Source: Nitrososphaeraceae archaeon
GTDB taxonomy: Archaea > Thermoproteota > Nitrososphaeria > Nitrososphaerales > Nitrososphaeraceae
Direction of reading: 5' to 3'
Assembly (NCBI GenBank): GCA_022545895.1
Contig: JAKEIK010000108.1
Span: 1 to 49,744 of the forward strand
Length of the DNA: 49,744 bases
Shown: in pieces, positions 23,727 through 28,302 of the stretch
How the letters are laid out: every line of letters begins with the position of its first letter
Numbering within the stretch: position 1 is the first letter of the stretch
The notes under the pieces: model-generated
Seen by the model: the letters and a program-made list of their open reading frames with translations, nothing else
The model's database searches: none
Told to the model about the DNA's origin: nothing
Made by a program: the position numbers and the translations under genes

Positions 23727-23924
23727 ATGAAAAGAGAGAATATACTGATTCCAAAACCTAAAAGCAAGTTTTTGTCTGTGCAGTGCCCTGAATGTCAGGA
23801 AAAAATGATAATTTTCTCCCACACTACAATCGATATCCCATGTAAATCTTGTGGAAAACTAATAGCTGTAAAGAGGGGAGGGAAGGCACGAATCTTGGGA
23901 AAGTTGTTAGCCGCTTTAGACTAA
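23727..23924 (+). CDS. rps27e: 30S ribosomal protein S27e
   Basis: A zinc-ribbon small-subunit protein: CPECQ, then CKSCG about 20 residues later, then GKLIAVKRGGKARILG, the family ending. I take the ATG at 23727 (65 residues). An open frame extends upstream to 23643, but that stretch overlaps L44e and does not belong to the family. The last four bases overlap the convergent cobY gene. Confidence 0.95.
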   Translation: MKRENILIPKPKSKFLSVQCPECQEKMIIFSHTTIDIPCKSCGKLIAVKRGGKARILGKLLAALD

Positions 23925-24550
23925 TTAAGATAGGCGTTTACTGCCTTAAGATCTTCCATAGTGTTTATGTTAAAAGCTATATCTTCCCTATTCATCACAA
24001 TATATGATTCATTGGCTTCTACCCCAGTGAGAATTCTGGACGTGTCGATCATAGTGATTCCAGTATAACAATATTCAACTTTCTCAACAGAAATTACAAT
24101 GCTTGGTATTAATCCCAAACTTTCGATGAAACTTTTCTCCATGATGATAGATACGAAACTTGCATCAGGATTCCAGCTTTTCAGAATCTCATTTATTGTT
24201 TCTGCTTTCAGTATTGGAAGATCAGAAGGAACAACAATTATTTCTGAGGGCTTTAACCTTTCAATAACTTGTCCAAGATCTGTACTATAATCAAATCCAG
24301 AAGTCTCTATTAAATGAAGTCCATTCACGCAATGGTTGAGGTTACGCAAATATTTTGATGTGGCAGTTGTATGGCGGCTAGTTATGCCTACTACCGAACT
24401 AAATTTCTTTGAAGATACCAATGCATCAAGGACATGTCCTACCATAGGTTTTCCTCTAAAAAGGAGCATAGGTTTTTCAAACGTTAATCCTTGATTCATC
24501 CTAGACCCTTTTCCGCCACACATTATAGCGGCCATCATGGGGCGATTCAT
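23921..24550 (-). CDS. cobY: Adenosylcobinamide-phosphate guanylyltransferase (CobY)
   Basis: It transfers GMP to adenosylcobinamide phosphate, making the GDP-activated intermediate for CobS. MMAAIMCGGKGSRM is the nucleotidyltransferase loop, and EKPMLLFRGKPMVGHVLDAL and VVPSDLPILKAETI follow. CobY is the archaeal replacement for CobU. MobA-type enzymes look similar, but the four-base overlap with cobS and the operon context fix the role. It is the last gene of the five-gene cobalamin operon and convergent with S27e. Confidence 0.92.
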   Translation of the reverse strand: MNRPMMAAIMCGGKGSRMNQGLTFEKPMLLFRGKPMVGHVLDALVSSKKFSSVVGITSRHTTATSKYLRNLNHCVNGLHLIETSGFDYSTDLGQVIERLKPSEIIVVPSDLPILKAETINEILKSWNPDASFVSIIMEKSFIESLGLIPSIVISVEKVEYCYTGITMIDTSRILTGVEANESYIVMNREDIAFNINTMEDLKAVNAYLN

Positions 24551-25314
24551 ACCACCAATAGAGACAGCACCAACAGCGATGATAGACGGGTAATTTCATT
24601 GGAGGCTCCAAGTACATCACCGGTCAGTCCCCCGAAATTTTTAGTTGAAAGGTGGCAGATTACACCGGCGATTAACAGTCCCGTTCCCAAAGAGATCAAT
24701 CCAATGTAACCTCTCAAGGTCAAAACTATTATGAGTGTAGATATGGTCGCAAATGCAATTTTCTTTTTGTCTTTCATCTCCCTGGTAAAGGGTGAACTAA
24801 ATCCTTCCCAGGCTGATCTGCCGCTGCCGGCCTCTATGACCATTATGTATTTGGCTATTACCTCTGCAACTACTATACTGATCAAAAGTTTGAAAGCAGA
24901 ATTATAAGTAGAAATGGCTATTATCAATCCTATGATGCAGACAACTAAAGATATTGCACCTGCAGTACCTACCGCAGGATCGGACATGGCCCGTCGTTTT
25001 GCATCCTTGCTTCCCTTCACCATCAAACCATCTGCAAAATCTGCAAGTGCATCAGCATGTTGCATTCCTGTAATTAGCAGTATGGCGATTGTTACGAAAA
25101 AGCCGACTAAATAATTTTCCAGATATATCGAAAGACCATAAGCAAAAATACCTACGATTATGCCTATTATAGCACCTACAATAGGAAACAGGTACATATT
25201 ACGAGCTGTTACGCTGATATCTGTATTACCCGACCTTGGTACAGGAATGATCGTCAAAAAAGATAAAGCTGAAAGAATTCCATCAGAACCCAAAGAAAAA
25301 GTTCCACCATCCAA
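24547..25314 (-). CDS. cobS: Adenosylcobinamide-GDP ribazoletransferase
   Basis: A membrane enzyme joining adenosylcobinamide-GDP to alpha-ribazole (phosphate), the closing step of nucleotide-loop assembly. ALSFLTIIPVP near the start, HADALADFADGLMVKGSKDAKR with the conserved Asp-rich motif, and MSDPAVGTAGAISL are family signatures. Several transmembrane helices fill the rest of 255 residues. The TTG start overlaps the end of cbiB by 32 bases and the stop overlaps cobY by four, so translation is coupled. The substrate ribazole needs 5,6-dimethylbenzimidazole, which BluB (45.6 kb) can provide. Confidence 0.95.
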   Translation of the reverse strand: MDGGTFSLGSDGILSALSFLTIIPVPRSGNTDISVTARNMYLFPIVGAIIGIIVGIFAYGLSIYLENYLVGFFVTIAILLITGMQHADALADFADGLMVKGSKDAKRRAMSDPAVGTAGAISLVVCIIGLIIAISTYNSAFKLLISIVVAEVIAKYIMVIEAGSGRSAWEGFSSPFTREMKDKKKIAFATISTLIIVLTLRGYIGLISLGTGLLIAGVICHLSTKNFGGLTGDVLGASNEITRLSSLLVLSLLVV

Positions 25315-26260
25315 TTGTTGATAACGATATTATCAGAGGAAATGATACCAGTAAGCAAAAAACAATAGTTGTTATTTTCATTATTTTAATAGCCGTCCTG
25401 CATTTTTCGATAGACAGGGGTTCCAATTCGCTACCCAAGGTGTATTCATCAATTTTCTCCAATTTTATCCTCAGAGCACCTGCCATCGTAGACATCGGAT
25501 ACCCGGCATTAGCACTGTATGTGTTATGATGATCAGTGCCCAAGACTTGAATGGAGTTTTTCCAATCTGCTCCAACTATCCTTGCCGATAGGATCATTAA
25601 CATTGCACACAGTCTTGCTGGAACATAATTTAATATTGTGTCTACTTTTGCACTCATCCAACCTATATTGAGATGATATTTATCTTTATAGCCAATCATT
25701 GAATCAAGTGTATTAACAACACGGTATCCGACGGCGCCGGAAGGACCAAAAAAGGAGTAATAAAATAGCGGTGCAACAATCCCGTCTACAACGCTTTCGC
25801 CAATTGATTCTATAGTGCCGGATAAAATATGTTGGGTATCCAGTGTACTAGTGTTTCTGCTAACTATGTACGAAAGATTCCTTCGCGCTCCTTCAAGATC
25901 ATTTTTTTCCAGAGCTCGGATTATAACATTGACATGCTTTTCCATTGTCAATATCGCAATACTTGACTTGAGAACTATAACTGCATAAATTGCGAACCCA
26001 ATGAAACTAAAAATTGAATAAATGTATAGAGAAAATAGCTGGCTCAAAATACAAGCTCCCCATGCTAAAAATAATGTGAGTACCACTCCATTGAGCTTCT
26101 CAATCTTCGAATTTTCGGACTTAAGTTTTAATTTGTGAATGATCGCATCAATAAACTTACCAAGCCATGATACGGGATGAAAGTTGTTTGGTGGATCACC
26201 GAAGCTGAAACTAAGTGCGACCCCCGTGGATATAGAAAAAAGTATATAGATTACATCCAT
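25283..26260 (-). CDS. cbiB: Adenosylcobinamide-phosphate synthase
   Basis: An integral membrane protein attaching the aminopropanol linker (phosphate) to adenosylcobyric acid. FGDPPNNFHPVSWLGKFID near residue 20, VVDGIVAPLFYYSFFGPSGAVGYRVVNTLDSMIGYK and NYVPARLCAMLMILSARIVG are the CbiB/CobD hallmarks. The 325-residue length fits. It overlaps cbiP upstream by ten bases (ATGGATGTAA) and cobS downstream by 32. In other nomenclature this protein is called CobD; I use cbiB to keep it apart from the decarboxylase. Confidence 0.95.
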   Translation of the reverse strand: MDVIYILFSISTGVALSFSFGDPPNNFHPVSWLGKFIDAIIHKLKLKSENSKIEKLNGVVLTLFLAWGACILSQLFSLYIYSIFSFIGFAIYAVIVLKSSIAILTMEKHVNVIIRALEKNDLEGARRNLSYIVSRNTSTLDTQHILSGTIESIGESVVDGIVAPLFYYSFFGPSGAVGYRVVNTLDSMIGYKDKYHLNIGWMSAKVDTILNYVPARLCAMLMILSARIVGADWKNSIQVLGTDHHNTYSANAGYPMSTMAGALRIKLEKIDEYTLGSELEPLSIEKCRTAIKIMKITTIVFCLLVSFPLIISLSTIGWWNFFFGF

Positions 26261-27117
26261 TTCTGTTCTAGTCCAACTACCCTTGAGACTATGCTCTTAA
26301 TGTCTATAATCTCTTTCACTTTCGAAGCCAGAATGTTTACTTGTTCATCAAGTGATTCAGGAGATACTTCGGGAGATTGTACCTTAGTTTCATCCAATGA
26401 GTCTTCATTAGGTAACGTAAATTCTATTCGTGGCAATATTCCCAGTACTTCTTTTTTTGTCATCCTTTCGATTGTTGTGATGGCACCATCTAAAATTAAT
26501 TTATCTCCTCTGAACTTGTTTATTACTATTCCCTTTACTAATTCGCAGTGCTGAGGTTTTAGTAACCCTAATGTTCCTACAATGCTTGCAAAACAACCGC
26601 CGCGTTCTATGTCTGCAATCAAAATTACCGGGGCGGAAATTTTTTCTGCTAGTAACATATTTGCTATATCGTATTCAGCAATATTGATTTCTGCTGGAGA
26701 TCCTGCTCCCTCTATCAAGATGACATCATTTTCTTGCCGCAGTTCCTCCAAATTCTTCAGCACAGACGAAAGTCCTTCCTTGAGAACAAAGTCTTTATAA
26801 TATTCATCGGCCCTCATTCTTGCATGGTATATGCCGTTTATGAAGACATTACTCCAATAGTCTCCCAATGGTTCCAATAATATGGGATTCATTCGTGAAT
26901 CTGGTGCCTTCCTCGATGCAAATGCTTGAACTGCTTGTATTCTGGCTAGTTTTTTGTTAGTGTTAGAAATTGTATAAAAATTAGATGTCATATTCTGAGC
27001 CTTAAATGGAGATACTGAGTATCCCATGTCAGAGAATATTCTGCATAACGCAATCACGAGGGTGCTCTTCCCTGCTCCCGAGGATGTTCCTTGAATCATA
27101 AGTACTTTTGCAGTCAA
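26251..27117 (-). CDS. cbiP: Cobyric acid synthase lacking the glutaminase domain
   Basis: CbiP/CobQ amidates four side chains of adenosylcobyrinic acid a,c-diamide with ATP. The dethiobiotin-synthetase-like domain is complete: QGTSSGAGKST (9-19), APFKAQNM-like SPFKAQNMTSN, SRMNPILLEP, IEGAGSPAEINI, ADIERGGCFASI and GIVINKFRGD. Normal CbiP is about 480-500 residues with a C-terminal class I glutaminase. This one stops at 288 after a polar linker and a short tail, and cbiB starts immediately, so no glutaminase is encoded nearby. It may use free ammonia or a separate subunit. Sequencing error is unlikely because both ends overlap intact operon genes. Confidence 0.88.
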   Translation of the reverse strand: MTAKVLMIQGTSSGAGKSTLVIALCRIFSDMGYSVSPFKAQNMTSNFYTISNTNKKLARIQAVQAFASRKAPDSRMNPILLEPLGDYWSNVFINGIYHARMRADEYYKDFVLKEGLSSVLKNLEELRQENDVILIEGAGSPAEINIAEYDIANMLLAEKISAPVILIADIERGGCFASIVGTLGLLKPQHCELVKGIVINKFRGDKLILDGAITTIERMTKKEVLGILPRIEFTLPNEDSLDETKVQSPEVSPESLDEQVNILASKVKEIIDIKSIVSRVVGLEQKWM

Positions 27118-28181
27118 TGATCTATTGACTCCAAAGATCTAAGGAGTGCAACATTTTCATGGTGATTTCTGATTGCTACACGAATGAAATTTTTGCGAAG
27201 TCCCCTAAACGTACTGCAATCTCTCACAAGTATCCCCTTCCACCTTAGCAGATAATCTCTCAGTTTTAACGAATTACCTCGATGCAAATCTATCAAATAA
27301 AAGTTCACATCGGAACGGATTGTAGAAAATGACTTTAACCTTCTCTGAATTTCTTGGAACATAAATTTGCGTTCCTTTCTTATGAAATTCTTTGCCCGGC
27401 GAAGGTGTTGTGTATCATTTAATGCAATAATTCCTGCCACTTGTGCTAGCCCGTTCACATTCCAGGCAATTCTGTGCATAGACAATTGACGCGCGGTTCT
27501 AGGATGTGAAATGCTATATCCAAGTCTTAGGCCCGCAAGGCCATGGGATTTTGTCAATGATCTTAAAATCACCATATTTGGAAATTCACTAACTTTGTCG
27601 ATTAAGGACAAATGTGCCTTAGGATCATCAGTTAATTCCATAAAGCTTTCATCAACAAGAATTTTGGTTGAATCGTTACTCCTTTCCAATATTTTATAAA
27701 TAGATCTATTAGAGAGAATGCCTGTGGGATTGTTGGGATTGCATAAAAAAATTGCATCTATGTTTTTTGCACTGTCTAGTATAGCATCAGGATCGATTTC
27801 CCAGTCTGAAAGAGGCACAAACTTTGCTTTGGCTCCTACCCTTCTCGAGGCGAGTTCATATTCGCAAAAAGTGGGCGAGGGTATTATCACCGCCTTCTTG
27901 ACGAAAGACCTTGCGAAATTATGAATTATTTCAGTAGCCCCGTTTCCTACGTTAATTTGGTCAATAGATATCCTTCCGTCTAGATAACGAATCAAATTCT
28001 CTTTAAAGTCTGCGCATTCGGGGTCTGGATAATTACAGGAAAGTGTCCCTAAGCATTTCTTGAGTTTAGTTACTGCGCTTCTTGACACTCCCAGTGGATT
28101 AACGCTGGAACTAAAGTCAATTTTAACAATATGTGGTCCTGCTGAGTGGATCCCACCATGAGGGCAAGAGCCTGTAGTCAC
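27114..28181 (-). CDS. cobD: Threonine-phosphate decarboxylase-like PLP enzyme
   Basis: A fold-type I PLP enzyme close to histidinol-phosphate aminotransferase. In this operon the expected reaction is decarboxylation of threonine-O-3-phosphate to aminopropanol phosphate for CbiB. CPHGGIHSAGP, DFSSSVNPLG, VGNGATEIIHNFARSF, CNPNNPTG and the PLP lysine in SLTKSHGLAGLRLGY are present. I place the start at GTG 28181 (355 residues). It opens directly into the conserved HGG region, with a TATA box 27 bp upstream. An in-frame TTG at 28286 would add 35 unrelated residues across that TATA box. It is the first gene of the cobalamin operon. Confidence 0.88.
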   Translation of the reverse strand: MTTGSCPHGGIHSAGPHIVKIDFSSSVNPLGVSRSAVTKLKKCLGTLSCNYPDPECADFKENLIRYLDGRISIDQINVGNGATEIIHNFARSFVKKAVIIPSPTFCEYELASRRVGAKAKFVPLSDWEIDPDAILDSAKNIDAIFLCNPNNPTGILSNRSIYKILERSNDSTKILVDESFMELTDDPKAHLSLIDKVSEFPNMVILRSLTKSHGLAGLRLGYSISHPRTARQLSMHRIAWNVNGLAQVAGIIALNDTQHLRRAKNFIRKERKFMFQEIQRRLKSFSTIRSDVNFYLIDLHRGNSLKLRDYLLRWKGILVRDCSTFRGLRKNFIRVAIRNHHENVALLRSLESIDH

Positions 28182-28202
28182 TTGCTCAAGATTGGTATTT
28201 AG

Positions 28203-28213
28203 TAATATATATT
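28203..28213 (-). promoter_or_regulatory. TATA box of the cobalamin operon
   Basis: On the minus strand, aatatatatta is centred 27 bp before the GTG at 28181. It drives the five-gene operon as a leaderless transcript and decides the start of the first gene. Confidence 0.6.
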
Positions 28214-28302
28214 TAGAATCATTCAATCCTAACAAATTCTTTAGCGACAAGTCATATTCCTGTAAACGATTATTAGTTCCATTCAAAATAACGCCACACT
28301 AT

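Follow-up and report, generated by a model that had tools for sequence, protein, structure and literature searches.

Several described enzymes resemble the protein analyzed here, each in part. Closest are the cobyric acid synthases of the CobQ/CbiP family (NCBIfam models NF001989 and TIGR00313), with whose fused members, i.e. those that carry the glutaminase domain GATase_3, it shares an ATPase domain of ∼50% identity, a C-terminal helix and a gene cluster; it differs from them in having no GATase_3 domain, in an altered loop at residues 45–56 and in a score under the TIGR00313 cut-off. Dethiobiotin synthetase (BioD) has this fold too, as a stand-alone ATPase that needs no glutaminase, although its substrate and chemistry are different and it has no CobQ C-terminal helix. 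NAD synthetase, which belongs to another family and fold, provides a precedent in that its ammonia-dependent form is without a glutaminase domain and its glutamine-dependent form has one. MurT/GatD likewise amidates a carboxylate and is the separate-subunit version of such a system, with a CobQ-like Cys/His dyad in the glutaminase; however, MurT is a Mur ligase and not a dethiobiotin-synthetase-like ATPase, and no GatD-like orphan was found in our source genome. In GatD, mutation of either residue of the dyad abolishes glutaminase activity (PMC5871853). The open-access literature that we searched contains no mention of glutaminase loss in the CobQ of ammonia-oxidizing archaea (AOA, by which we mean AmoA-positive lineages).

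The window, i.e. the whole stretch of DNA that was analyzed, comprises 49,744 nucleotides from a Nitrososphaeraceae archaeon and contains a corrinoid cluster in the order cobD-cobQ-cbiB-cobS-cobY:

27114 to 28286, minus strand: cobD-like PLP aminotransferase (Pfam Aminotran_1_2), its stop overlapping the cobQ start
26251 to 27117, minus strand: cobQ/cbiP, a cobyric acid synthase without its GATase domain (open reading frame, 288 aa; Pfam; NCBIfam NF001989)
25283 to 26260, minus strand: cbiB (Pfam CobD_Cbib, 1.8e-80), beginning within the 3′ end of cobQ
24547 to 25314, minus strand: cobS, cobalamin-5-phosphate synthase (Pfam CobS, 2.2e-42)
23921 to 24550, minus strand: probable cobY, an NTP transferase (Pfam NTP_transf_3 and place in the cluster)

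The last of these encodes a MobA-like NTP transferase with a weak CofC match and takes the name CobY from its position. CbiC was found in the source genome, and cobQ thus sits in the corrinoid cluster of a corrin maker. The cobQ gene starts with TTG and is tightly packed; the cobD stop and the cobQ start overlap as TTGA, and at the 3′ end the cbiB ATG (26260–26258) and the CobQ stop (26253–26251) give an overlap of 10 bases. These overlaps leave no local room for a GATase segment, as the original prediction had stated.

Is the protein a CobQ at all? The N-terminal motifs of the family are found (P-loop, KxQNM, EGAGSPAEIN, RGG and NKFRGD), and NF001989, the cobyric acid synthase model, gives 305.5 bits against a cut-off of 273 over model positions 1–258 of 480. 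The full-length model TIGR00313 gives 277.9 bits, under its cut-off of 309.9; Pfam finds CbiA and AAA_26 domains only, and both Pfam and the alignment show the GATase_3 domain with its catalytic Cys and His to be absent. The window protein is a member of the CobQ/CbiP family without a defining domain, in agreement with the assignment first made for this reading frame. Its parts are as follows:

26398 to 27117, minus strand: ATPase (synthetase) domain, residues 1–240 (Pfam, AlphaFold2, PDB fold matches)
27064 to 27090, minus strand: P-loop GTSSGAGKS, residues 10–18 (sequence, alignment)
26950 to 27003, minus strand: loop KAQNM-TSN..., residues 39–56, with S at residue 45 and K at residue 56
26362 to 26397, minus strand: flexible linker, residues 241–252 (alignment; pLDDT <50 at 240–249)
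26254 to 26361, minus strand: native C-terminal helices, residues 253–288 (match to fused CobQ C-termini; predicted structure)

The original prediction had the protein ending where the GATase domain would begin, and on this point it was mistaken. Aligned with fused relatives, the protein follows the ATPase domain to residue ∼240, passes through a short linker at the place of the ∼200-aa GATase_3 domain of other CobQs, and then resumes with the C-terminal helix of the full-length enzyme; its last ∼30 residues match that helix, LDEQVNILASKVKEIIDIKSIV aligning with, for example, FWDKQIQRFSTIVKDNIELEQIM of fused relatives. Since residues ∼253–288 are this native helix, ∼200 residues were lost from the interior and not by C-terminal truncation. 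Two tail HMMs built from fused C-termini only, one from non-AOA Nitrososphaeria and the other from 59 bacterial and euryarchaeal sequences, were compared with the tails of 65 excised proteins of AOA, i.e. those lacking the domain. The median scores were 13.9 and 15.8 bits, respectively, against a maximum of 6.0 bits among 1300 shuffled tails, and the match nearly always stops no more than a few residues short of the C-terminus. AlphaFold2 gives the window protein a pLDDT of 85.8 and a pTM of 0.88, with the ATPase domain mostly at 85–97, a disordered linker at residues 240–249, and helices at 253–270 and 273–281 (pLDDT about 93–94 in residues 261–280). Such confidently predicted helices past a disordered linker suggest that the C-terminal helix belongs to the synthetase fold. 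In some CobQs of genus g2 of family f1 (L086, L089–L092; f, g and G are our labels for families, genera and genomes), a longer Lys/Asn-rich low-complexity stretch, of up to 97 residues after EDSL, precedes that helix.

How widespread is this architecture? AmoA (PF12942) was found in f1, f2, f3 and f5, with no other Nitrososphaeria family among the matches listed. A class-wide comparison of CobQ lengths, again among the matches listed, shows a clear difference: the proteins of f1, f2 and f3-g20 are excised, at about 273–342 aa, and the frames of f6 and f9 measure 514–546 aa. All the f1, f2 and f3-g20 CobQs that were read individually are excised, with lengths of 274–339 aa. The excised form is present in many single-contig AOA genomes across many genera, and records of Nitrosopumilus spp., Nitrosocaldus schleperae and UBA8516 have it as well. 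GATase_3 matches at E<1e-56 occur only in the AmoA-negative f6, f7 and f9, and in most AOA the top match to this domain is CbiA (∼450–490 aa). Among fused bacterial and archaeal CobQs with complete frames, the motifs GxCGG and HG are present in all those inspected, SAT137 excepted; its CobQ is identical to that of G300 (f5). Families of the same phylum (f40 and f43, both CbiC-positive, and f54, f57 and f67) have fused CobQs with Cys and His, and the catalytic dyad is kept in the non-AOA CobQs inspected, including those of de novo corrin makers of this phylum. One Thermoproteales-like lineage that seemed in a crude motif search to be without the dyad proved on alignment to have it intact. In all AOA examined, the glutaminase domain is absent or minus a catalytic residue.

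The lineages in which a catalytic residue has gone are AmoA-positive and retain fused but degenerate proteins (INTERMEDIATES), namely those of f5 (G112 and G300) and of G137 (f3-g30). In the two f5 genomes, CobQ is 494–495 aa long and its catalytic His has become Tyr, G-C-[FC]-L-Y-G replacing G-T-Y-L-H-G. In G137, with 448 aa, the domain is shrunken and Cys has become Asp, GIDEG replacing GICGG. The degenerate proteins of both families share P[SP]SR where other CobQs have PG[TS]KN, and GI[CD]EG where these have GICGG. Between the f5 proteins, identity is 55% in the GATase domain and 80% in the ATPase domain, against 65–80% and 77–85% in control pairs; the f5 GATase domains thus diverge faster than controls, yet an open frame is kept. 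Had glutamine use been abandoned, degenerate glutaminase domains would be expected, and their occurrence in these other AOA lineages supports such a reading.

A tree of the ATPase domain places the 36 AOA CobQ sequences in one clade (100/100), within which f1+f2 (96/96) is sister to f5+f3 (91/78). The presence in f3 of both a fused degenerate genus (g30) and an excised one (g20) suggests that the glutaminase was excised at least twice, independently; a single excision is not rejected by the gene tree alone (p-AU 0.446). The synthetase half has also changed. The motifs of the ATP half, said originally to be all intact, are nearly all so; the exception is the loop after KAQNM, near-invariant as LNS...E in other CobQs and altered in AOA. 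Of the 91 fused non-AOA proteins, 90 have Leu45; of the 65 excised AOA proteins none has it (Ser in 47, Asn in 16), nor has any of the three degenerate ones (all Ser). Asn46 and Glu56 are found in all 91 fused non-AOA proteins and in 26 and 29 of the 65 excised ones, respectively, and are kept in the degenerate forms. Since Leu45 has already gone from the degenerate fused forms, we infer that coupling to the glutaminase was probably lost before the domain vanished, on the supposition that this loop contacts the glutaminase. The order of events might then have been as follows: the coupling of the two halves would have been lost with the change in loop 45–56, in the AOA ancestor or close to it; the glutaminase would next have decayed in f5 and f3-g30 and been excised in f1+f2 and f3-g20; and the C-terminal helix would have been retained, since it is apparently part of the synthetase fold.

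Where, then, does the nitrogen come from? Our main explanation, to which we assign a probability of roughly 60%, is that the window CobQ is an ammonia-dependent cobyric acid synthase. The AOA enzyme would, like its relatives, use ATP to activate the four corrin carboxylates that remain, and the nitrogen for amidation would be free cytosolic ammonia instead of ammonia channelled from glutamine. Corrin amidases are able to use ammonia in vitro, poorly, as kinetic work has shown. Cultures of Nitrosopumilus maritimus SCM1 grown with no added B12 release cobalamin (PMC8281238). Since this species is reported to make cobalamin and the CobQs of Nitrosopumilus spp. read here are excised, a GATase-less CobQ should work; CbiC is present in nine of nine AOA genomes tested, so the CobQ step is needed. 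In the source genome (94% complete), searches with PF07685 and PF00117 found no dedicated stand-alone glutaminase subunit. There is no orphan GATase_3 there either, the four PF07685 matches being CbiA, PdxT, PurQ and HisH, and the separate glutaminase that the original prediction offered as its alternative thus failed to appear. In the AOA genomes searched, no full-score GATase_3 other than CbiA was found; the remaining matches are like PdxT, PurQ and HisH in size and weak scores, with individual identification in the source genome only. With no dedicated partner found, cobalamin released by N. maritimus and a CobQ step that is needed, direct use of ammonia is the simplest reading. For the broader proposal that all AOA make B12 via an obligately ammonia-dependent CobQ, produced by glutaminase inactivation, internal excision and re-tuning of the synthetase, we would offer slightly better than even odds.

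The original prediction had regarded direct ammonia use as attractive in a probable ammonia oxidizer. AmoA is indeed present in the source genome, and ammonia is still the most likely nitrogen source, but the attraction of plentiful ammonia is too simple an explanation by itself because other glutaminases have been kept: CbiA, upstream in the same pathway, has its Cys and His intact in AOA, and glutamine amidotransferases of the HisH, PurQ, PdxT, CarA, GuaA, PyrG and TrpG types are retained and look intact. Glutamine use in AOA was thus not relaxed across the board by the supply of ammonia. Moreover, only one clade underlies the connection with ammonia oxidation, which makes it effectively a single event; it is also confounded, in that de novo corrin synthesis is found in the AOA families of this order, whereas the closest families without AmoA (f6–f9) have no CbiC match. 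The CbiC-positive f40 and f43, with fused intact CobQ, partly remove this confounder. Three genomes of f6–f9, all AmoA-negative (G166, G151 and G189; L082, L083 and L041), combine a fused intact CobQ with no CbiC match, and G151 also has CbiZ; these families apparently salvage corrinoids. In G099 (L044:690-2124), the ATPase and GATase parts of CbiA lie in different frames with a low-complexity junction; the split may be real, or it may come from a frameshift or an assembly error.

The main rival to an ammonia-dependent CobQ, and one that we regard as unlikely though well above negligible, is a glutaminase supplied in trans, as GatD is to MurT, either by a protein that we call X186 or by a borrowed enzyme such as CbiA. 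The MurT/GatD system itself lends some weight to this proposal, as ammonia-driven amidation there still requires GatD to be present (PMC6085368); the lack of an orphan GATase_3 in the source genome weighs on the other side. PF00117 searches across 14 genomes returned two stand-alone class I GATases outside the named enzymes, X186 and X250. The latter was rejected as a CobQ-specific partner, for it is also found in the AmoA-negative G166, whose CobQ is intact. X186 (∼180 aa) has its GICYG Cys and FHPE motif intact and is present in nearly all AOA, and in several genomes it lies 9–20 kb away from cobQ or cbiA; however, it matches the GMP synthase subunit A/TrpG type rather than GATase_3, it is unlinked to cobQ in complete f1 genomes, and wherever its surroundings were read it adjoins a large membrane protein, its other flank in f1 and f2 being taken by a C39-like protein. 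Nor does its distribution follow that of CobQ: X186 is present in f10 genomes that gave no match to CobQ; it occurs in one f6 genome whose CobQ is fused and intact, is absent from another f6 genome, and has no match in G119 (97% complete), which has CobQ. The evidence thus does not support this GuaA/TrpG-like protein, with a cassette of its own, as a dedicated CobQ subunit. That cassette (L072:639-4068, L073:582-3965, L235:1390-5761, L238:4823-9266, L074:1-2539) is conserved in AOA and consists of a ∼950-aa membrane protein, UPF0182-like by eye, and X186 (motif ILSGRRKN), with a third gene in f1 and f2 for a ∼313-aa C39-peptidase-like protein.

A second rival, which we consider improbable, is that the protein no longer serves cobyric acid synthesis but has another carboxylate as its substrate, some other enzyme finishing corrin amidation. 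The near-invariant loop beside KAQNM is altered in all AOA, and the closest solved folds in the PDB are dethiobiotin synthetases (e.g. 1dbs), both of which would suit a changed substrate; against it, the gene stays in the cobD-cobQ-cbiB-cobS-cobY cluster, the score exceeds the NF001989 cut-off, there is no other CobQ in the source genome, and the CbiC of the nine AOA genomes argues that the step is needed. Finally, the gene might be split, an assembly or frameshift artefact, or a pseudogene in decay, the complete CbiP lying elsewhere. This reading, raised in part from the outset, can be dismissed as having almost no chance of being right: the source assembly does consist of 353 contigs at 94% completeness, but the excised form recurs in single-contig AOA genomes of many genera and is therefore no assembly artefact, the overlaps are tight, the frame is intact with its C-terminal helix kept, and no second CbiP was found in that assembly.

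An ammonia-dependent CobQ would have several implications. For annotation, there is already a warning: metagenome surveys took the full-length CobQ model TIGR00313 as a marker (PMC4303638), and the window CobQ scores under the curated cut-off of that model. If the broader proposal for all AOA is true, theirs would be, to our knowledge, the first natural ammonia-dependent CobQ of such a kind. AOA are considered major producers of B12 in the ocean, and ammonia use by CobQ would be surprising in such organisms. Four of the six corrin amidations would be tied to the free ammonia of the cell, and the amount of B12 made could be governed directly by intracellular ammonium. In the AOA enzymes, an amidotransferase would have dispensed with its glutaminase in nature, a case that lends itself to testing.
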